64,000 nt of DNA, from positions 2,470,789 to 2,534,788 of the forward strand of contig NZ_KE386569.1 in the NCBI RefSeq assembly GCF_000427625.1, in the 5' to 3' direction. Of the stretch, positions 11,385 through 32,105 are shown piece by piece. This DNA comes from Methylobacter luteus IMV-B-3098. GTDB lineage: Bacteria; Pseudomonadota; Gammaproteobacteria; Methylococcales; Methylomonadaceae. The notes beneath the pieces are model-generated. The model was not told the DNA's origin, ran no database searches, and was given only the letters and a program-made list of their open reading frames with translations. The position numbers and the translations under genes are program-made. Each line of letters starts with the position of its first letter. Within the stretch, counting starts at the first letter, position 1.

Positions 11385-13094
11385 TCACAAGCGATATAGC
11401 GGTTCCAAACCGGAATCCGACGTTTGTGCGATTCTCTCCCGGGCTTTATTTTCACTGAACGCCTGGAACAGTCTTTTCCCTTGCCACTGACGGGCATCCC
11501 TGCCATACAGCACCTGATTCAACAGCTGAATTTCATCCCTTAACCGGGCATCACAACAGAATGCGATAGCGCCGAGATTCGTGGCATCAAATTTTTGCCG
11601 CCCCCAATCCAGCAGGGCCTCCTTGGCGGCCACGGCATCATCATCGCTACAGGCCTGCTTTAATCTTTTAATGCTGTCATTCAAATTTACTTCAGCAGCG
11701 GCCGCTTGCGGTACGGGCTTCTGGGCTCGCCGCCTGGAAAGAAAATAAATCAGCGTCGCCAGCCAGCCCACCGCCAAAAATCCTGAAACCCCTAGCCAGA
11801 TATTGGTTTGCCGAGCCTGTCCGGGCAGTGACAATTCAACCGTTTCAGGCCTTGCCGCTGCATCAACCGGCGCCTTGGCCGGGACCGGAGCGGCTGCCTC
11901 GCCTGCCGCTGCGACAGCATGAATCGTTGTTTCCGGAATCGTGGCGATTTCCATTTGCTGAGTCCCGGTATTAAACCAGGGCACTTCGATGGCCGGCAGT
12001 TTATAGCCGCCCTCCTTCGACGGAATCAAGGCTATTTTTTCTTCTCTGAGGGCAATCACGCCGTCACCATTTTTCTGTTCCTTAAGCACCGGCTGGTCAG
12101 GATAGCTTTTTAACTGATCCTGCGTTTTGGCGGTGCTTAGCTCAGGCAACTGGCTGACTGTGGTGCCTTTTGCCAATAGCTTCAAGGTTCGCGTCAGCGG
12201 TTCCCCGACTTTCATGTGTTCGATATCGCCCGACCATTCCTGATTTAATTGCAGTTGTTCGGCCGGCAGCCAATGCTGTCCCGTAAAAGACGATGCGGCC
12301 GGCTTTACATCCAGCGCTACGGTTCGGGAAGCGACGCGCCGGGTTTTGGTCATACGGGGATTAAAGAAACCACCGAAGCTCGGGCGAGTCGCTGTCACGA
12401 CCTGCGCCGTCAATTCCAGAGGCTTGATGGTCATGCGGCCGCTTTTTTGCGGAAAAATCGCATACTTGCGTTCGGTCACCCAATAATCCGCGCCATTGAT
12501 CTGCATGCTGTAATTGCTATCATCGCCGAGTTTTTCAATGACGGCATCGGCCAGTTCCGGCTCATTCAAACTGGCCTGCGAAATTTCGACCTTGCGATAC
12601 AAACGCATGGTATAGAGAACCTGGGATTGCACATAAGGGTCTTCAGGAGACGCCTCAACTTCCATAAATAAGTCGCTATCGACAGGCAGATCCTTATTGG
12701 CCGCGACTTCGGTTACCTGCACAGTTGCTGTCTGACTCACATCATCGCCAAATTGTACGGCCGGCACGGTCAGATTACCGGCATGTTTGGCCATGACTTG
12801 CAGCACCCACTGAATGGTTTTGCTGGATGTGCCGTTGATCCATGACGAGTGGGTGCTCTGACTCTGTCCCAATATCTCGAAATCCTGTTCGAGCGGCGTG
12901 AAATCAGGATCATCATCCGGCGAGTCGGTGGCCGTATACGTGATCTGAAAGGATTCATTAAGATTGACCGAACTGCGGTCTACCGCAACATTGATTTCTG
13001 CCGCCGAAAGCCACGGCGCATTCAAGAGCAATAGAAAAAGCAGCGTCGCTTGGCATGAAGTGGCTGTTAACAATTTCAGTAATCTCATGTTCAT
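11385..13094 (-). CDS. batD: BatD-like oxygen tolerance protein
   Basis: Last gene of the MoxR/Bat operon. From the ATG at 13094 the 569-residue protein has a signal peptide (LLFLLLLNAPWLSAAE), a long periplasmic beta-rich region with the BatD pattern NVAVDRSSVNLNESFQITY near the start, and one membrane segment near residue 430 (IWLGVSGFLAVGWLATLIYFLS) followed by a cytosolic helical tail. Bat proteins are thought to form an envelope complex with the VWA proteins; the function in tolerance to oxidative or envelope stress is known only loosely. The longer frame to 13157 adds 21 residues lacking a signal-peptide look, so I rejected it. Confidence 0.82.
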   Translation of the reverse strand: MNMRLLKLLTATSCQATLLFLLLLNAPWLSAAEINVAVDRSSVNLNESFQITYTATDSPDDDPDFTPLEQDFEILGQSQSTHSSWINGTSSKTIQWVLQVMAKHAGNLTVPAVQFGDDVSQTATVQVTEVAANKDLPVDSDLFMEVEASPEDPYVQSQVLYTMRLYRKVEISQASLNEPELADAVIEKLGDDSNYSMQINGADYWVTERKYAIFPQKSGRMTIKPLELTAQVVTATRPSFGGFFNPRMTKTRRVASRTVALDVKPAASSFTGQHWLPAEQLQLNQEWSGDIEHMKVGEPLTRTLKLLAKGTTVSQLPELSTAKTQDQLKSYPDQPVLKEQKNGDGVIALREEKIALIPSKEGGYKLPAIEVPWFNTGTQQMEIATIPETTIHAVAAAGEAAAPVPAKAPVDAAARPETVELSLPGQARQTNIWLGVSGFLAVGWLATLIYFLSRRRAQKPVPQAAAAEVNLNDSIKRLKQACSDDDAVAAKEALLDWGRQKFDATNLGAIAFCCDARLRDEIQLLNQVLYGRDARQWQGKRLFQAFSENKARERIAQTSDSGLEPLYRL

Positions 13095-13143
13095 TATCAC
13101 GTATTTGAAGGGTGTGGCGGTACAATTGCTCCGGTCATGCTGT

Positions 13144-14949
13144 TTACCAGGCGGCATCCGAACCCGACCGGGCCTTGCTGTCTGATTGCTGTTCCCTCTG
13201 GCCGTATTGGTACAAAAATTTGCGTTTCAAAAGTCCTGCCGGGTCGTCAGGAATCCGATTGAGCCATTGTTCATTGGCCTGTGTCGTTTCGTCCTTGGTT
13301 TCAGCCGGAGGCTGCTCTGCCTGTTGAGCGGCTTGTTGCTGCGCATCATCCTTGTGCTGTTGACCTGGCTGCTGGCTCTTTTCGGCGTCCTGTTTTTCTT
13401 GCTCGGACTTGCTTTGTTGTTGCTGATCTTTCGGCTGCTGCTGTTTGTCCGACGGTTGTTGATCGGATTCATTATTCTGTTTTTGCTGATCGCCGGATTG
13501 ATCCGATTGATCGCCATCTTTTTGCTGCTGCGAATTATCCTTGGACTGCTGCTGATTATCGTCTTTTTGCTGCTGTTGATCCTGTTTCTGTTTTTCCAGA
13601 GCTTTTTCGACGATCTCCTTGTTATATTGAGCGTCTTTATCGTTGGGATTGATTTTCAACGCCTGATCGTAAGCTTTTAAAGCCTCTGCCAACTTCCCTG
13701 CCTTCGCTAGTGCGTTGCCCTGATTGTAAAAACTGTCGGCCGTGCCGGTATTGTCCAGGCTCGCCAGCGCTTCGTTATACTGACCGGCCTTATAGTGAGC
13801 CGCCGCTTTCCAGTCCTGATTTTCAAACAGTTGCGCGGCTTTTCCATAGTCGCCTTGTTGAAACGCCTGCTGCGCCCGCTGGTCTTTTGTGCGCCATAAA
13901 TCCTGCCAATCCAGAGCATAGCTGTTTTTCGGCAGCGGCAATAACAGCAACAAGGCCGCGCATAGCAAACCTTTTCTGAACGTCAGCGCCGCCAGCGGCA
14001 AAACCAGCAATAAAATCCAGGGGCCTGTGTCCTGCCACTGATTCAGTAAGCCATCCTTTTTCTCGGCTCCCTGTTGCCGTACGGGCTTGTCCAAAGCCGC
14101 CAGCAAGGCATCAATGTCGCTGTCGTCGGCGGTTATCGATTGGAATATGCCGTGCCCTGTCTGCGCCAGTTTTGTCAATTCATCGGCATTTAGTTTGGTG
14201 ACCACGATATCATCCTGTTCGTCTTTTAAAAAGCCGCCGTCCGGCAGCGCGATCGGCGCCCCCTCGGCGGTTCCGACGCCCAATATCGACAGTTGATAAC
14301 TGCCCAGTGATTTTACCGTCGGCAGGGTTTCATCGACATCGACGCCATCGGTCACGAGCAATAACTGGCCTTTCTGAAGACCGGCCTGTTTGAACAGCTC
14401 CAGTGCTTTTTCCAGAACCACGGCCGTATTGCTGCCCTGGCTGGGCATGATGTTGGTGTTTAACGCTTCGAGTTGGCTGGCTATGGTTTCGGTATCATCG
14501 GTCAGCGGCGTTACCGTAAAGGCATCGCCGGCATAAACCAGCAACGCAGTCTGGCCGTCTTTTCGCTGTTTCAGAATATCGGCAATTTTATAGCGCGCGC
14601 GCGTCAGGCGGCTCGGTTTGATATCGGCCGCATCCATGGACAAGGAAAGGTCCAGAGCGATGACCAGTGCCGAGTCATTACGAAAGACCGGCGCCGGTTG
14701 TCGTTCCCAGGTCGGGCCTGTCAGCGCGATGATCGCCAGAAAAGCGGCAACGGCACCTGCCGTCAGCGGCCAGCGGCTTTGCCCGACTGCCTTTTCCTGT
14801 AGGAGATAAGGCAAAAGGGCCGCGTCGCAGACTGCCGACCAGTTGCCTTGCCTGAGTTTGCTCCTCAGCATTAAAACCAGCAGCACGCCATACGGTATCA
14901 AGGCCAGCAGCCAATAGGGTCTGATGAAGTGAAATTCAGCTAGATTCAT
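13144..14949 (-). CDS. BatB-type VWA protein fused to a TPR (BatC-like) region
   Basis: From the ATG at 14949 the product has 601 residues. Order: two N-terminal membrane segments, a VWA domain (about 70-290) with the metal-site motif ALDLSLSMD, a membrane segment (WILLLVLPLAALTF and a following hydrophobic stretch), then TPR repeats (QQGDYGKAAQLFENQDWKAAAHY, ...NQGNALAKAGKLAEALKAYDQALKINPND) and a 150-residue Gln/Lys/Asp-rich tail. In some genomes BatB and the TPR protein BatC are separate genes; here they form one. The start overlaps the batA stop by four bases (ATGA), so translation is coupled. The low-complexity tail gives spurious long frames on the opposite strand. Confidence 0.87.
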   Translation of the reverse strand: MNLAEFHFIRPYWLLALIPYGVLLVLMLRSKLRQGNWSAVCDAALLPYLLQEKAVGQSRWPLTAGAVAAFLAIIALTGPTWERQPAPVFRNDSALVIALDLSLSMDAADIKPSRLTRARYKIADILKQRKDGQTALLVYAGDAFTVTPLTDDTETIASQLEALNTNIMPSQGSNTAVVLEKALELFKQAGLQKGQLLLVTDGVDVDETLPTVKSLGSYQLSILGVGTAEGAPIALPDGGFLKDEQDDIVVTKLNADELTKLAQTGHGIFQSITADDSDIDALLAALDKPVRQQGAEKKDGLLNQWQDTGPWILLLVLPLAALTFRKGLLCAALLLLLPLPKNSYALDWQDLWRTKDQRAQQAFQQGDYGKAAQLFENQDWKAAAHYKAGQYNEALASLDNTGTADSFYNQGNALAKAGKLAEALKAYDQALKINPNDKDAQYNKEIVEKALEKQKQDQQQQKDDNQQQSKDNSQQQKDGDQSDQSGDQQKQNNESDQQPSDKQQQPKDQQQQSKSEQEKQDAEKSQQPGQQHKDDAQQQAAQQAEQPPAETKDETTQANEQWLNRIPDDPAGLLKRKFLYQYGQREQQSDSKARSGSDAAW

Positions 14950-15926
14950 GACAACCTCACGCGGGACAGTGCAATCACGGCCGCCAGCAACAGCGCGCCC
15001 GCCAGCGGCCAATAGTACAGTTCGCTTCTGGGCCTGAAGTATTGTTTGTCTTTTTCCGCCGGCTCCAGTTGATCCAGCAACTGATAGATGTTGTTGAGCT
15101 CATCGGTATTTCTGGCCCGAAAATAAACGCCACCGGTTTTTTCAGCGATGGCCGTCAGGGTTTTCTCATCGAGATCCTGGGACGGATTGACTTTCTGGGC
15201 GCCGAAAAAGCTGCGCACGAGCATTTCATCGGCGCCGATGCCGATCGTGTAGATTTTTAACTGGTTTTCGGCAGCCAGTTCGGCCGCTTTCAGCGGCGAT
15301 ACTTCGCCGGCGGTGTTCGCGCCGTCCGTCATCAGGATCAGAACCCGGCTGTTGACCTCTTGATTCTTGAGGCGTTTGACAGCCAGACCGATTGCATCGC
15401 CGATCGCGGTATTGTCGCCGGCCAGGCCGATCGCCGACTCATCCAGCAAGGTCATGACCGTTTTTCTGTCGAAAGTCAAGGGCGTCTGCAGATAGGCCTG
15501 CGTGCCGAACAGAATCAATCCCAGCCGGTCGCCCACGCGCCGGTTGATGAAATCGCCGGCCACCCATTTGGTCGCCGTCAACCGGTCCACGGCCTGCTTG
15601 TTGATGACAAAATCCTCGACTTCCATGCTGCCCGATAAATCCACGGCCAGCATCAGATCACGGCCGCTGACAGCCTGCTCGATCGGATCGCCCAGCCATT
15701 GCGGCCGGGTGCAGGCTGCGATCAGTAAAATCCAAGCGATGGCCGCCGCCAGGAACGGCCATCGCCTGGTTTGGGAAACAATGTGCGTATCGCCCTCGGA
15801 AAAATCGTCCAGAAAAGGGACTTTTAAAGCGGCCTGTTCGACGGGTTTATGCGCAGGCAGCAGCCAGCGGATCAGTAAAGGCAATGGTAAAAGGCTGAGC
15901 AGCCAGGGCCATTCGAAGTGAATCAT
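14946..15926 (-). CDS. batA: BatA-type VWA domain protein
   Basis: A 326-residue membrane protein: an N-terminal membrane anchor (WPWLLSLLPLPLLIRWLLP), a second segment near 58-70, a VWA domain (about 85-290) with the metal-ion site MLAVDLSGSMEVEDF, and a C-terminal membrane segment (YYWPLAGALLLAAVIALSRV). It faces the periplasm and presumably pairs with the neighbouring BatB-TPR protein. The gene overlaps its upstream and downstream neighbours by four bases each, a compact operon. Confidence 0.9.
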   Translation of the reverse strand: MIHFEWPWLLSLLPLPLLIRWLLPAHKPVEQAALKVPFLDDFSEGDTHIVSQTRRWPFLAAAIAWILLIAACTRPQWLGDPIEQAVSGRDLMLAVDLSGSMEVEDFVINKQAVDRLTATKWVAGDFINRRVGDRLGLILFGTQAYLQTPLTFDRKTVMTLLDESAIGLAGDNTAIGDAIGLAVKRLKNQEVNSRVLILMTDGANTAGEVSPLKAAELAAENQLKIYTIGIGADEMLVRSFFGAQKVNPSQDLDEKTLTAIAEKTGGVYFRARNTDELNNIYQLLDQLEPAEKDKQYFRPRSELYYWPLAGALLLAAVIALSRVRLS

Positions 15927-16393
15927 TTTTTTGCCTGGGCTTTAAGCCAGTCTTCGCACAGACTGATTAATGGTGGAATTTCCTCATCGGCCAGCTGCGT
16001 TTTTCGGTAAGGCGCATCGCTCAAATGCCGGCCAATCCCTTCGCTGAAAGGCGAACCTGTGACCGAGCAGTCCAGATAAGCCAGCCATGCCTGGCCTGTC
16101 AGGCCGGCCGCTTGCGTTCTGGGCGATACGCTGATCGCGACGCGCCGGATCAGTACGGAAAGCTCGGTCACTTTTCCGTGGTTGTCGAGCCTCTTGTCCT
16201 GTTTGATTTGCGCCAGTATTTTTTTCGCGGTTTTGATGGCGGTCTTGCGAGTCAGACGCTTGTATAGCCAGACAAGCAAAACGATCAGTAAGGGCGCCGA
16301 TATGGCTATGAGCCACCAGCCGATAGCCGGGGGCCACCAGCCGATGGCTTCCGGCATATGGATGTCTTTTAAGGGAAGTTGAGCCGGTTCCAT
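15923..16393 (-). CDS. DUF4381 domain membrane protein
   Basis: A 156-residue protein with a single membrane segment at about 22-43 (GWWLIAISAPLLIVLLVWLY) then a cytosolic helical domain. The starting PLKDIHMPEAIGWWPPAIGWW is the signature of DUF4381 proteins, which occur almost only in MoxR/DUF58/VWA operons. Its role is unknown; by position it could connect the DUF58 protein with BatA. It overlaps batA by four bases and abuts the DUF58 gene. Confidence 0.85.
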   Translation of the reverse strand: MEPAQLPLKDIHMPEAIGWWPPAIGWWLIAISAPLLIVLLVWLYKRLTRKTAIKTAKKILAQIKQDKRLDNHGKVTELSVLIRRVAISVSPRTQAAGLTGQAWLAYLDCSVTGSPFSEGIGRHLSDAPYRKTQLADEEIPPLISLCEDWLKAQAKK

Positions 16394-17347
16394 TTATCTA
16401 TGCCCCAACAAATATCTTAAACGATGCACCGGATCATCATCGGTACTGCATTGCATGAAAGCCAGCCTTCTGCTTCGGGCCAGCTGAGCCAGGCGCTGCT
16501 GGCGCAGGGCGAAGCGTTGCTGATACTGCAAAGCCGCGCTGGAATCGGCGTCCACGATTACATCGCGCACATCATCGGTAAACCGGTAGCGGCCTTTGGC
16601 GGGCAGCGCGCTTTCCAGCGGGTCATGGACCATGACCAGGACCACGTCGCAGTGTTGCGACAGTTTTAACAGGTGCGTTTCGGCTTTGTCATTCAACCCG
16701 CGAAAATCGCTGATGATGTAAACGCGACTGCCGGGACGGGCATGTTGCGTCAAGCGCGCCAGCACGTGTTCCAGCGTACTGGTAGAGGCGACAGTATCCG
16801 CCTCATTGACTGGGCGACTGAAGTCGCCCCCGCAGACGATGGCATTGAGAAACCGCAAAACCGCATGCTTGCCGTTTTGCGGCTTCAATTCGCGGCAGGC
16901 CGTATCGGAAAATATCTGGCCACCGATCCGGTCGCCTTGATGCTGCGCCGTCCAGGCCAGCAGGCCTGCCAGCTTGGCTGCCAGGACCGACTTGAAGACG
17001 CCGCGCGTCGCGAAATGCATGGCGGCCCGGTTATCGACGGAAATGAATATCGGCCGCTCGCGTTCCTCGCGGAACAGCTTGGTATGGGGCTTGCCGGTGC
17101 GGGCCGTCACGCGCCAGTCGATGCTGCGAATATCGTCGCCGGGCTGGTAAAGCCTCGCTTCGTCAAATTCCATGCCCCGGCCCTTGAAGCGCGAGACATA
17201 GCCGCCGCTCTGTGCCGAGCGTATCGCGGCATGTTGCAGGTTCAAGCTGGCCGCGGGTTTGGCAAGATCGATCAAGGTTTTGAGCGATACTGAAACCAGC
17301 TCGTCGGATGATTGTCGGGCATTGTTTGCCCGTTTACTGAAAAACAT
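16394..17347 (-). CDS. DUF58 (VWA-like) protein
   Basis: A 317-residue soluble protein beginning MFFSKRANNARQSSDELVSVSLKTL. The DUF58 core is clear: GRGMEFDEARLYQPGDDIRSIDWRVTARTGKPHTKLFREERERPIFISVD. The start at 17347 is chosen because its ATG shares one base with the moxR stop (TGATG), giving coupled translation, whereas the longer frame to 17572 runs antisense-like through moxR and encodes an implausible Arg/His/Cys-rich extension. DUF58 proteins are regular partners of MoxR ATPases. Confidence 0.9.
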   Translation of the reverse strand: MFFSKRANNARQSSDELVSVSLKTLIDLAKPAASLNLQHAAIRSAQSGGYVSRFKGRGMEFDEARLYQPGDDIRSIDWRVTARTGKPHTKLFREERERPIFISVDNRAAMHFATRGVFKSVLAAKLAGLLAWTAQHQGDRIGGQIFSDTACRELKPQNGKHAVLRFLNAIVCGGDFSRPVNEADTVASTSTLEHVLARLTQHARPGSRVYIISDFRGLNDKAETHLLKLSQHCDVVLVMVHDPLESALPAKGRYRFTDDVRDVIVDADSSAALQYQQRFALRQQRLAQLARSRRLAFMQCSTDDDPVHRLRYLLGHR

Positions 17348-18339
17348 CAAGGTACGGCAATTCTGGCAATGAGCTCTCTGATGAAATGATCGGTCGTGAT
17401 GCCTTCGGCCTCGGCTTCGTAAGACAGTATCAGGCGATGGCGCAGGACATCGAATGCCATGTCCTGAATGTCTTCGGGGCTGACAAAGTCGCGCTGCACC
17501 AGCCAGGCTTTGGCCCTGGCACAACGGTCCAGCGCAATGCTGGCTCTGGGGCTCGCGCCGTATTGCAGCCATCCGGCCAGATCCTTGCCGTAAGCGCCGG
17601 GATTGCGCGTCGCCAGCACGATTTGCAGCAAATAGTCTTCAAGGCTGTCAGCCATATAGAGATCCAGCACTTCGTTGCGGGCATCGAATAAGGTCTTTTG
17701 GTCGACAGGTTCAAATTTGGCGCCGTCTTTTACTGAAGTCAGCCTTGCTTCGGTTCGGGCCAGCTGCAGGATGCTTTTTTCGTGCTCCGGTTTCGGATAA
17801 TCGATTTTGACATGCAGTAAAAAACGATCCAGTTGCGCTTCGGGCAACGGATAAGTGCCTTCCTGTTCGATAGGATTTTGCGTTGCCATGACCATGAACA
17901 GTTGCGGCAGGGGATAAGTCGCTTGGCCGACTGTTATCTGGCGCTCGGCCATGGCTTCCAGTAGCGCAGCCTGCACTTTGGCCGGCGAACGGTTGATTTC
18001 ATCGGCCAGGATCAGGTTATGAAATAAAGGCCCTTTTTGAAACTCGAAACTGCCCTGCTGGGGACGATAGATTTCGGTACCGGTTAAGTCGGCCGGCAGC
18101 AGGTCCGGTGTGAACTGCACGCGATGAAAGTCACCTTGAATGCCTTTGCTCAAGATATTGATTGCTCTCGTTTTGGCAAGGCCCGGCGCTCCTTCAACCA
18201 GAATATGGCCATCAGCCAACAAGCCGATCAGCATTCTTTCAACAAGCACATTCTGGCCGATAATTTCTTGATTAATATAGGTTTTCAGTCTTAATAACGA
18301 CGATTGACTGGTACTTTTATTGCTGTTTTGTTCCGACAT
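17347..18339 (-). CDS. MoxR family AAA+ ATPase
   Basis: First gene of the six-gene Bat operon, 330 residues. Walker A GAPGLAKT (50-57), Walker B LILADEINRSPAKVQAALLEAM, sensor 1 MATQNPIEQEGTYPLPEAQLDRF and the MoxR-specific DYPKPEHE are visible. MoxR proteins act as chaperone-like ATPases working on the VWA partners encoded downstream. The intergenic region upstream also holds the clustered DnaA boxes described at 18340-18741. A second MoxR gene is at 60819-61739. Confidence 0.93.
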   Translation of the reverse strand: MSEQNSNKSTSQSSLLRLKTYINQEIIGQNVLVERMLIGLLADGHILVEGAPGLAKTRAINILSKGIQGDFHRVQFTPDLLPADLTGTEIYRPQQGSFEFQKGPLFHNLILADEINRSPAKVQAALLEAMAERQITVGQATYPLPQLFMVMATQNPIEQEGTYPLPEAQLDRFLLHVKIDYPKPEHEKSILQLARTEARLTSVKDGAKFEPVDQKTLFDARNEVLDLYMADSLEDYLLQIVLATRNPGAYGKDLAGWLQYGASPRASIALDRCARAKAWLVQRDFVSPEDIQDMAFDVLRHRLILSYEAEAEGITTDHFIRELIARIAVP

Positions 18340-18741
18340 AGTCCAATTGTATGTTTTAGATCCATGGCTTGGAGGGCATTAAGCCGCGCCAACAAAAATT
18401 AATAACCGAAGCTGAAGGTTATCCCCTTATAAACAATCTTTTTGTGAAAAAGTTCCTTATTATTTTATACAGATATTTCGACTGGCGGCATAGAGTAACT
18501 TCTGTATATAACGATGAGTTACCTGTGGATTACGGTGTGCACAATCTCAACAGCCAAGTTATCCACAAGCTGCGCACAGAATGTGGATAACATTAACCGC
18601 AAATTAGTATCTACTTCAAGCTGTTGATATTAAATAATAAATAACACTTATCAACAGGTCTTGTCGGCGTAATAGTAACAATAGGTTTTTAAATATTTTA
18701 TTTTGTTATGATTACAGTCGAGAAAATAAACGGTCATCGTC
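18340..18741. other. oriC: Candidate chromosomal origin (oriC): clustered DnaA boxes and AT-rich stretch
   Basis: A 402-base gene-free region between divergent genes. Perfect DnaA boxes: TTATCCACA at 18559-18567 and its inverse TGTGGATAA at 18582-18590. One-mismatch boxes: 18524-18532 (TGTGGATTA) and 18648-18656 (TTATCAACA). A weaker match is TGTGCACAA at 18536-18544. An AT-rich run follows at about 18621-18720. The rough base skew of flanking genes also changes polarity in this part of the window. The moxR operon promoter and the peptide transporter promoter must lie here too. The alternative is that the boxes only regulate transcription; the rpmH-dnaA gap has no good box. Confidence 0.6.
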
Positions 18742-20082
18742 ATGGATATCTATAAAACCAAACCGGGTTCATCTGATACGCTGCCAACCGGCATCCCTTA
18801 CATCGTCGGCAATGAAGCGGCCGAACGCTTCAGCTATTATGGGATGCGGGCCATTCTGGTAATTTTTATGACTCAGTATCTGGTGGACTCAGCGGGTCGG
18901 CCCGATGTCATGTCTGAAAATGAAGCCCAGGGCTATTTCCATTTATTTGTCTCGGCTGTGTATTTAATGCCGCTGTTCGGAGCTTTACTGGCTGACAGCT
19001 TGCTAGGCAAATACCGCACGATTATTTATTTATCGCTGATTTATTGCCTGGGGCATTTTGCCCTGGCGGTTGACGATACACGCATCGGTTTGCTGATCGG
19101 GCAGGGGCTGATCGCTATTGGTGCAGGGGGCATAAAACCTTGTGTTTCCGCAAATGTCGGCGATCAGTTTGGTGTGAATAACCGGCATTTAGTCGGTAAG
19201 GTCTTCAGCTGGTTTTATTTTTCCATCAACCTGGGCGCGTTCGCTGCTATGCTGGTTATTCCATGGCTGCTGCATCATTATGGTTCCTCGGTGGCCTTTG
19301 CCGCTCCCGGTTTTTTAATGCTGCTGGCCACGCTTACGTTCTGGTCGGGCCGTTACCGCTATGTGCATGTGCCGCCGGCCGGCATGGCATTTATCAGAGA
19401 GATGTTCAGCACTGTCGGCTTGACGACGCTAAAAAAGTTGGCGTCTGTTTACGCTTTTATTGCTATATTCTGGGCTTTATTCGAACAGATCGGCTCATCC
19501 TGGATATTGCAGGCGCAAAAAATGGACCTGATAGTTTTTGGAGTTGAACTGTTGCCATCGCAAATTCAGGCAGCCAATCCGCTACTGATCATGGTGCTGA
19601 CGCCGTTGTTTTCGTATGGGATTTACCCGTTTATAAACCGGTTTATTGAATTGACGGCACTGAGAAAAATGGTGATCGGTTTGTTCCTGACCGCGCTGGC
19701 TTTCGCCATTGCCGGTTTCATACAAATTGATATCGATAATGGTTTGGCTCCGTCTATTATCTGGCAACTGCCGGCATATTTGCTGCTGACGTCAGCCGAA
19801 GTCATGGTTTCGGTGACCTGTCTTGAGTTCTCTTACACTCAAGCGCCCAAGACTATGAAGTCATTTATCATGGCGTTTTATTTTCTGTCGGTAGCTGCCG
19901 GCAATCTGTTGACCAGCGCCGTCAATTTTTTGATCCAAAATGCCGATGGTTCCAGCAAACTGGCCGGTGCGGATTATTTCTGGTTTTTTGCCGGCTTAAT
20001 GTTGGTTACTGCTGTGCTGTTTTTGTTTTCGAGCCGTTACTACACTGAGCAGTCCTATTGGCAGGATGAGCAAAGTTCCTGA
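18742..20082 (+). CDS. POT/PTR family proton-dependent peptide transporter
   Basis: A 446-residue polytopic inner-membrane protein of the major facilitator fold with about 12 or more membrane segments. The POT signature NEAAERFSYYGMRAIL (ExxERFxYYG, proton coupling) is at residues 27-42, and GKVFSWFYFSINLGAF matches the second family motif. It probably imports di- or tripeptides with protons. It stands alone after the DnaA-box region; the next gene begins 55 bases downstream and may be a separate unit. Slightly shorter than the usual 480-500 residues. Confidence 0.9.
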   Translation: MDIYKTKPGSSDTLPTGIPYIVGNEAAERFSYYGMRAILVIFMTQYLVDSAGRPDVMSENEAQGYFHLFVSAVYLMPLFGALLADSLLGKYRTIIYLSLIYCLGHFALAVDDTRIGLLIGQGLIAIGAGGIKPCVSANVGDQFGVNNRHLVGKVFSWFYFSINLGAFAAMLVIPWLLHHYGSSVAFAAPGFLMLLATLTFWSGRYRYVHVPPAGMAFIREMFSTVGLTTLKKLASVYAFIAIFWALFEQIGSSWILQAQKMDLIVFGVELLPSQIQAANPLLIMVLTPLFSYGIYPFINRFIELTALRKMVIGLFLTALAFAIAGFIQIDIDNGLAPSIIWQLPAYLLLTSAEVMVSVTCLEFSYTQAPKTMKSFIMAFYFLSVAAGNLLTSAVNFLIQNADGSSKLAGADYFWFFAGLMLVTAVLFLFSSRYYTEQSYWQDEQSS

Positions 20083-30606: not shown

Positions 30607-31923
30607 ATGAGCTCAATCTGGAATAACTGCCTTTCTAAGCTTGAAAATGAAATCTCCAGTTCCGATTTCAGTACTTGGATACGGCCGCTTCAGGCCATAG
30701 AAAGCGACGGACACATTAAACTGCTGGCGCCTAATCGATTTGTGTTGGATTGGGTCAAGCAACATCATTTTGCCAAAATTGAAGAAACCATCCATGAGTT
30801 TTCCAATGGCACGTTAAACCTGATTCTTGAAATCGGTTCTAAAAAATCGACCGCGCCTGTCGCCGCAACGATTGCCAAACCGGCCGAAACCAAAAAGGCC
30901 AGCCCCAACTTTCTTAATAAAGCATTTACTTTTGATAATTTTGTCGAAGGCAAATCCAATCAATTGGCCAAGGCAGCATCGATCCAGGTTTCCGAAAACA
31001 TCGGCAAGGCTTATAACCCGCTGCTGATTTACGGCAGTTCCGGGTTGGGTAAGACCCATATGATGCATGCGATAGGCAATGCCGTTTTACAAAAGAATCC
31101 ATCGGCCACGATTGTTTATCTGCATTCGGAAAAATTCGTACAGGATATGGTCAAGGCACTGCAACAAAATTCCATCAATACCTTTAAGGAATATTATCGC
31201 GGCGTTGACGTACTGCTGATCGACGACATTCAATTTTTCGCCGGCAAGGAACGCTCGCAGGAAGAGTTTTTTCATACCTTCAATACCTTGCTGGAAAAGA
31301 AACACCAGGTCGTGTTGACCTGCGATAAATATCCGAAAGAGATTATCGGGCTTGAAGACCGTTTGAAATCGCGGTTCGGCTGGGGACTTCCTGTTTCAAT
31401 TGAACCGCCGGACATGGAAACGCGGGCCGCTATTTTGATGAAGAAAGCGCATCTGGCGAATGTGGATCTGCCTCAGGAAGTCGCATTTTTTATCGCGAAA
31501 AGAATTCCGTCCAATGTGCGTGATCTGGAAGGCGCATTAAGACGCGTGATTGCCAATGCGCAGTTCACGGGCCGCGAGATCACGACCGAATTCACCAAGG
31601 AGGCGTTGCATGATCTGATCTCCCTGCAGGATAAATTGGTCAATATAGACAACATTCAAAAGACTGTCGCAGAGTACTTCAAAATCCGCGTAGCCGATTT
31701 GTCGTCCAAAAACAGACGGCAGTCCATTACCCGGCCGCGGCAAATGGCCATGTGCCTGGCTCGGGAATTGACCTCGCACAGTTTCCCCGAAATCGGCGAA
31801 GCTTTCGGTGGCCGAGATCACACGACCGTCATGAATGCTTGCAAACGCATTAGTGAGCTCAAGGAAGCCGATAGCAAGGTTGCCGAAGACTATTCCAATC
31901 TGTTGAGAACGCTATCGCATTAA
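30607..31923 (+). CDS. dnaA: Chromosomal replication initiator protein DnaA
   Basis: Binds DnaA boxes and opens the origin. The 438-residue protein has an N-terminal DnaB-interaction domain ([27 protein letters not shown]), Walker [10 protein letters not shown] (about 142-150), Walker [26 protein letters not shown], and the DNA-binding signature [15 protein letters not shown] at the C-terminus. A little shorter than the E. coli protein (467) because the linker is short. The intergenic region behind it contains a perfect DnaA box at 31936. Confidence 0.98.
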
Positions 31924-32105
31924 CCGTGAGAAAGCTGTGGATAAAAACGCCTGTTATTAACAGCCCAGGTTTAGCTACAGTCAAGACACATGCAGTTACA
32001 ACTTTAACCACATTATTTTTAACAAGCTAGCTTATTGATTATTAAGGTAAAAATCGAGTTTTCAACAGTTTTATGCCAGCTAGTAATAACAAAAAAATTC
32101 TTTAT
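31924..32105. promoter_or_regulatory. dnaA-dnaN spacer with DnaA boxes
   Basis: Perfect box TGTGGATAA at 31936-31944 and a one-mismatch box TTAACCACA at 32004-32012, plus TTTTCAACA at about 32057. The spacer is AT-rich in its second half and must carry the ribosome-binding site of dnaN. These boxes could allow DnaA control of dnaN transcription, or be a minor origin element. The cluster is thinner than at 18.5 kb. Confidence 0.45.

Follow-up and report, generated by a model that had tools for sequence, protein, structure and literature searches.

The gene-free interval between the divergent moxR and POT genes of Methylobacter luteus (18340-18741) is very probably the genuine main origin of replication (oriC), displaced from dnaA, and the module in the dnaA-dnaN gap its relict or auxiliary. 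Positions are those of the window, the whole 64-kb stretch of DNA that was analysed (G000:C1:2470789-2534788), in a 5.03 Mb genome of four contigs, of which C1 has 4,543,119 bases. A preliminary description had proposed a displaced oriC about 12 kb from dnaA, and the proposal is supported by the skew minimum, by the change point of the skew and by IHF-like and trio-like elements in 18 loci. The probable main site is beside moxR; a second, weaker module at dnaA-dnaN had been missed. Since that module is there, displaced may mean duplicated, the old copy not having been entirely lost.

The interval separates moxR (17347-18339, minus strand; MoxR AAA ATPase, PF07726, from ORF and domain match) from a gene for a POT family peptide transporter (18742-20082, plus strand; PF00854, from domain match). 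It is free of genes as had been described, with no ORF of at least 100 aa overlapping it on either strand, and a box scan recovered the four DnaA boxes of the preliminary description. Two perfect boxes are opposed (18559-18567, plus; 18582-18590, minus) and two have one mismatch: TAATCCACA (18524-18532, minus), with a matching place in all four genus members including this one, and TTATCAACA (18648-18656, plus), a terminal R1-like box also identified by alignment and pattern. An IHF-like site, CAAGCTGTTGATA (18617-18629, minus), was called by match to the IHF consensus, and relatives carry a similar site at the same position. Thirteen nucleotides past the terminal box, sequence and alignment indicate a DnaA-trio-like run, TAATAGTAACAATAG (18670-18684, plus), in the layout of the basal unwinding system (BUS) of PMC8287927. 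The AT-rich stretch that follows (18685-18716) is, from its composition, presumed to be part of the unwinding element; the earlier report of an AT-rich run holds, with 90% AT at 18680-18699 and 75% at 18700-18719. The order of elements is box array, IHF-like site, R1-like box, 13-nt spacer, trio-like run and AT-rich stretch.

The interval has a DnaA-box cluster in non-coding DNA, as expected of an oriC, and, as judged from sequence, an unwinding element (AT-rich, with a DnaA-trio) beside a box. An E. coli-type origin would add an IHF site between R1 and the array together with an encoded IHF, and both are present by sequence match, the IHF-alpha gene giving a profile match over the cut-off. 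The GATC-rich DNA and SeqA of that type were not found: 18340-18741 has one GATC in 402 bp, and a search of the genome for PF03925 at E 0.001 gave nothing, although it did detect the E. coli control. Single-strand DNA folding of 18500-18741 gave z = -4.3, as expected of an inverted box pair, and is not counted as evidence.

The 64-kb window contains 22 DnaA boxes with at most one mismatch (12.1 expected). Four boxes in 124 bp, or two perfect boxes within 23 bp, arose in 0/300 simulated windows (first-order, whole window, 1-kb local composition). The genome has 52 perfect boxes, and by eye 18559/18582 is the sole pair closer than 300 bp besides nine palindromic pairs with a 14-bp offset. The latter form a two-perfect-box palindrome, TTATCCACA-5-TGTGGATAA with a variable 5-bp centre, found on three contigs (G000:C1 268674, 3423677, 3568653, 3831640, 3902588; C2 80535, 262067; C3 25396, 79740); two of these places were read and by eye have no common neighbour gene. 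Dispersal of the palindrome to nine other places could suggest that the cluster arose by chance or is the remnant of a mobile element. We regard this as having next to no probability, in view of the simulations, of the difference in offset (14 in the palindrome, 23 in the moxR-POT gap) and of the conservation of position and elements beside the same gene across genera. A plasmid or transposon origin was also considered and was rejected, as the neighbouring ORFs that were scanned include no such gene. The moxR gene is followed by DUF58, BatA/BatB-like VWA and BatD-like genes, an operon of MoxR-Bat type (11385-17572). The closest named records of MoxR are from Methylobacter and other Methylococcaceae/Methylococcales, at 87-90% identity, records very near the window possibly being excluded; they point most likely to a methanotroph of the Gammaproteobacteria.

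Conservation was assessed in the aligned moxR upstream regions of 18 loci, the window's own included. The pool they came from comprised 30 loci found by the search for relatives, together with 80 named ones. These loci were selected for a visible box cluster, which makes the conservation of the boxes partly circular. The common order is opposed boxes, IHF-like site, terminal box, 13-14 nt spacer, trio-like run and AT-rich stretch; a clean copy of the trio is absent from L156, and of the terminal box from G006 and L140. Element columns are on average 0.72 identical, as against 0.41 elsewhere, and 0/449 circular shifts of the mask are as good. The distance from the 18559-18567 box to the terminal box, taken by hand, is 88-89 bp in 13 of the 18.

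In the whole 5.03 Mb genome, TTATMMACA-N9..18-TARTARTAA is matched once, at 18648. This box-spacer-trio pattern is present in 13/31 genomes (reversed control, 2/31) and, family-wide, in 59/121 (reversed control, 12/121). When 800 kb of the genome was ranked by a composite score, the top place went to 18648 (39) and the next to 32059 (31), which is in the dnaA-dnaN gap, with scores of at most 19 elsewhere; pattern and score both derive from an alignment containing the 18648 site, so that the moxR-side score is partly circular, and this applies less to the dnaA-dnaN sites recovered in relatives. With the cut-off put at 25, a value set after the table had been seen, the moxR module occurs in 10 of 30 moxR loci scored, the window's own among the 10; one of the 30, G029, is only a 38% paralogue. 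The same score is reached by 8/80 named loci (L140, L141, L142, L144, L150, L156, L158, L163), a set in which L143, L180 and L200 have less than 320 bp upstream. The right neighbour varies among relatives (POT, DUF4124 and, by eye, SDR) while the module persists, and a role for the boxes as part of the POT promoter was rejected on this ground. Dense converging box arrays lie upstream of moxR in L061 (G011; eight boxes) and L150 (nine), mostly in 11-12 bp steps, and are much denser than that of the window. We make no claim on the number of module gains and losses, because several inner branches of the MoxR+DnaA protein tree are weak (support 26-64).

The second module lies downstream of dnaA (30607-31923, plus strand; TIGR00362, 592 bits). 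The most likely start of dnaN (plus strand, to 33257) is 32106 rather than the ORF start at 32073, judging by the N-terminus in relatives, and this would set the gap at 31924-32105. The preliminary description had one perfect box there and none in the rpmH-dnaA gap. The box scan agrees on the rpmH-dnaA gap and on the perfect box (31936-31944, minus), but there is more: a one-mismatch box, TTAACCACA (32004-32012, plus), within what appears from element scan, composite score and alignment to be a degenerate copy of the whole module. Its other elements are an IHF-like site with one mismatch (32028-32040, minus), whose TTGATT core is identical in eight aligned genomes, a degenerate terminal box, TTTTCAACA (32059-32067, plus; element scan), and a DnaA-trio-like run, TAGTAATAACA (32081-32091, plus; element scan and alignment). 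The two modules of the window are 13.4 kb apart in the same orientation; in five two-module genomes measured the distance is 9-30 kb.

Across relatives the dnaA-dnaN module (score of at least 25) was found at 14/29 dnaA loci. Among 28 genomes scored at both sites, eight from five genera have both modules (G000-G003, G006, G008, G017, G018), two the moxR module alone (G011, G013), six the dnaA-dnaN module alone (G005, G012, G015, G020, G027, G030) and twelve neither. Five of the twelve belong to the same family (G004, G009, G010, G014, G016), and in one of these, G014, dnaN stands apart from dnaA and is preceded by a module. In G011 the best dnaA-dnaN score is 9, which amounts to no module, and there are 8 boxes at moxR. 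In the eight two-module genomes the element columns at dnaA-dnaN are 0.85 identical, as against 0.58 elsewhere, and 0/184 shifts are as good, although the IHF core was picked as an element after that alignment had been viewed. The terminal box is off consensus in most of the eight (TTTTCAACA, TTATTAACA); it is TTATCAACA in G001 and in the first of two tandem copies in G018. The dnaA-dnaN gaps of L076 (G018) and L087 (G005), at least 494 and at least 437 bp long (both measured to a projected start, which makes them some 33 bp too short), each seem to hold two tandem origin-like modules; in G018 the 3' end of dnaA is repeated ahead of the second copy.

Base skew switches sign in this region. The cumulative GC-skew minimum, over the 400 kb examined, is at window 15,697, which now locates a switch point that the preliminary description had left open. 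This is 2.9 kb from the box cluster and 14.9 kb from the dnaA start, and an oriC is expected at such a minimum, a measure that does not separate the two modules within the genus. The tallies that had first suggested a change in skew proved sound (mnmE third positions, 146 G and 104 C on the plus strand; rho 2-kb skew negative), and a minimum at rpmH-dnaA or mnmG, which had been named as the outcome that would speak against displacement, did not occur in this genome. Between 1.38 and 2.49 Mb the 20-kb stretches sampled mostly have negative skew, with one exception at 2.37 Mb (+0.049), and onward from 2.49 Mb round the contig to 1.15 Mb they are mostly positive; the sole dif-like site at up to three mismatches is at 1.2208 Mb (1220820 on C1), where the skew reverses again. 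Should C1 represent the complete circular chromosome, its two replichores, computed by hand from the dif-like site (1220820) and the module (2489436), would be very unequal at about 1.27 and 3.27 Mb, which agrees with the sampled skew. By the same hand measure those of G001 and G003 are nearly balanced.

In G008, G013 and G017 the skew minimum is 0.2-0.7 kb from the moxR module, and in G011 it matches neither site, being about 30 kb or more from both. In G001 and G003, of the window's own genus, it is nearer dnaA-dnaN (1.4 and 1.6 kb, as against 14.6 and 10.8 kb to moxR, by hand). Plain GC skew was rejected as a discriminator, as the comparison of G001 and G003 with G000 shows that it cannot separate sites 9-13 kb apart. 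A model of third-codon-position skew with a strand term and one change point was therefore fitted. In the window's genome it gave the box site an advantage of 3.2-3.7 scaled log-likelihood units over either dnaA or dnaA-dnaN, and it favoured moxR over dnaA-dnaN in six of seven genomes (G000, G003, G008, G011, G013, G017; the reverse in G001), with small margins in G013 (0.2-0.7 units) and G003 (0.6). For G011 the best change point falls close to 948 kb, at a distance of about 38 kb from the moxR module of that genome. Of two controls whose only module is linked to dnaA or dnaN, G005 peaked exactly at the module and G014 was off by about 16 kb, so that the method can be called useful but not reliable.

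These data bear on the proposal that oriC is still at dnaA-dnaN, the moxR cluster serving as a DnaA-titration or reactivation locus (datA- or DARS-like) or as a DnaA-controlled promoter of moxR or POT. Loci such as datA and DARS are box clusters that bind DnaA without initiating. The proposal would be in keeping with the skew minima of G001 and G003 and with a module at what is presumed to be the ancestral place, where the order-level relatives G020, G027 and G030 score 25-29. We consider it improbable: of the two modules the one at moxR is the stronger and includes a predicted unwinding element, the change point favours it in most genomes fitted, and G011 lacks a dnaA-dnaN module. The trio-like run and the skew minimum would further speak against titration.

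Skew in the interval between the modules (moxR to dnaA) gives a second view. At third positions it is +0.036, -0.032, -0.008 and +0.006 in the four genus members, with bootstrap errors of 0.02-0.05 (0.02-0.06 over all genomes), which is why single genomes do not decide between the modules. It is positive in the six of seven genomes whose change point favours moxR, and in the other genera it is so throughout (G008, G011, G013, G017 and both contig sides of G018, where the between side has +0.058 and +0.021). On the far side of dnaN the skew is negative instead of positive in G008, G011 and G018 (from three ORFs in the last). Skew would fit moxR firing in other genera and both sites, or a recent switch, in the window's genus; the pattern is also within error of a moxR-only origin.

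Both modules might instead be competent origins of one chromosome, cells starting at either with a preference that differs by lineage, which we judge unlikely. The case draws on the co-occurrence of the modules in eight genomes from five genera, on the conserved dnaA-dnaN element columns (elements picked once the alignment was known), on between-module skew near zero within the genus (G003 and G002), and on G001, which has TTATCAACA at dnaA-dnaN and is the only one of seven genomes whose skew points there. G018 has the same box at that place, yet its between side is positive, and the skew of the other genera favours moxR. The off-consensus terminal box of most two-module genomes also argues against competence at dnaA-dnaN, and conservation ahead of dnaN may reflect the dnaN promoter. 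A displaced main origin at moxR remains our preferred explanation.

A bipartite oriC consists of two close box clusters that share one unwinding element. In the window a distance of 13 kb lies between the clusters, and a trio-like run accompanies each of them. That the two might cooperate as one bipartite origin through a long DNA loop is very improbable, although two same-orientation box clusters flanking dnaA do loosely resemble the bipartite origins of PMC4403523. Those origins are close together, whereas the spacing here is 9-30 kb and varies among the five genomes, some genomes moreover keeping one module only.

The family scan found two or three distinct matching places in 10 of 121 genomes (G001, G010, G018, G048, G053, G071, G081, G096, G098, G108), places being counted by hand with a CCACA, CAACA or ACACA box required and overlaps merged. 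The second place in G071 looks like chance, and G048 and G108 are pattern matches; five of the genomes were read in detail. G096 (L290) has two modules in tandem upstream of dnaA, G098 (L285) an inverted pair 1.6 kb apart and G081 (L286, L287) three modules on one contig. G053 (L288, L289) has one at dnaA-dnaN and another 15 kb off on the opposite strand. G010 (L231, L238, L241) has three on three contigs, two of them alike and none on the dnaA contig; the interval from dnaA to dnaN is short in this genome and carries two degenerate boxes. The box-spacer-trio module seems to be readily duplicated and moved in this family. One might go further and see two competent oriC modules of the same design as an old state, spanning five genera, from which other lineages kept one module or multiplied them; we hold this to be doubtful.

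The oriC of E. coli comprises an unwinding element, R1 box, IHF site and array, with an oppositely oriented distal box. The moxR-POT gap, too, lies off dnaA; its unwinding element, R1-like box, IHF-like site and array follow one another as these parts do in E. coli, and its distal box is likewise oppositely oriented. It differs in its moxR and POT neighbours, its GATC content and the result of the SeqA search. In PMC10225481 the E. coli oriC sits between gidA and mioC, and in PMC8287927 it is separate from dnaA and its BUS score is relatively weak, unlike the clear trio-like repeat here. The same text gives 10-13 bp as the peak of spacer lengths in basal unwinding systems. As portrayed in PMC8287927 and PMC6669920, the B. 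subtilis incC system likewise has a terminal box, a spacer (13 nt here), a trio-like run and upstream distal boxes; the present site differs in lying off dnaA, in an added IHF-like site and in showing no second proximal box. Putative double origins were described for Ralstonia, Ochrobactrum and Dehalobacter, and two Pseudomonas aeruginosa elements discussed, in PMC4403523, which calls for experimental tests. They too are two origin-like intergenic regions per chromosome, one beside dnaA, whereas here the two regions agree in a detailed layout and occur together in five genera, at distances of 9-30 kb in the genomes measured. The matches listed from the open-licence literature included no paper on the oriC of Methylococcales. 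Origins displaced from dnaA are a familiar phenomenon, and what sets this case apart is the long-lived double module.

We propose a mechanism whose protein steps, from DnaA and IHF binding through unwinding to initiation, are all inferred by analogy with known origins. DnaA would load on the box array of the moxR-POT gap, and a bend of IHF type, placed between array and terminal box, would draw the array near. A DnaA filament would then spread from the R1-like box (18648-18656) over the 13-nt spacer onto the trio-like strand (18670-18684), the AT-rich stretch would open and forks would depart both ways. The weaker dnaA-dnaN module is presumed to be the ancestral origin of the order. It retains every element type, although its terminal box is weakened; this would suit a relict, or an auxiliary of low efficiency, and the copy would be the minor of the two.

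The arrangement carries a caution, that dnaA alone is an unsafe guide for placing the origin in this group. An origin could move through a two-origin intermediate or by a single shift at once, and natural intermediates would tell which. Some relatives have only the dnaA-dnaN module, others only that at moxR and others both, the element set being the same at the two sites, and the question of two natural origins can therefore be tested by ordinary read-depth sequencing. If both modules are competent, the family would offer a natural sequence of stages in the hand-over of an origin, and cells could start at either site.
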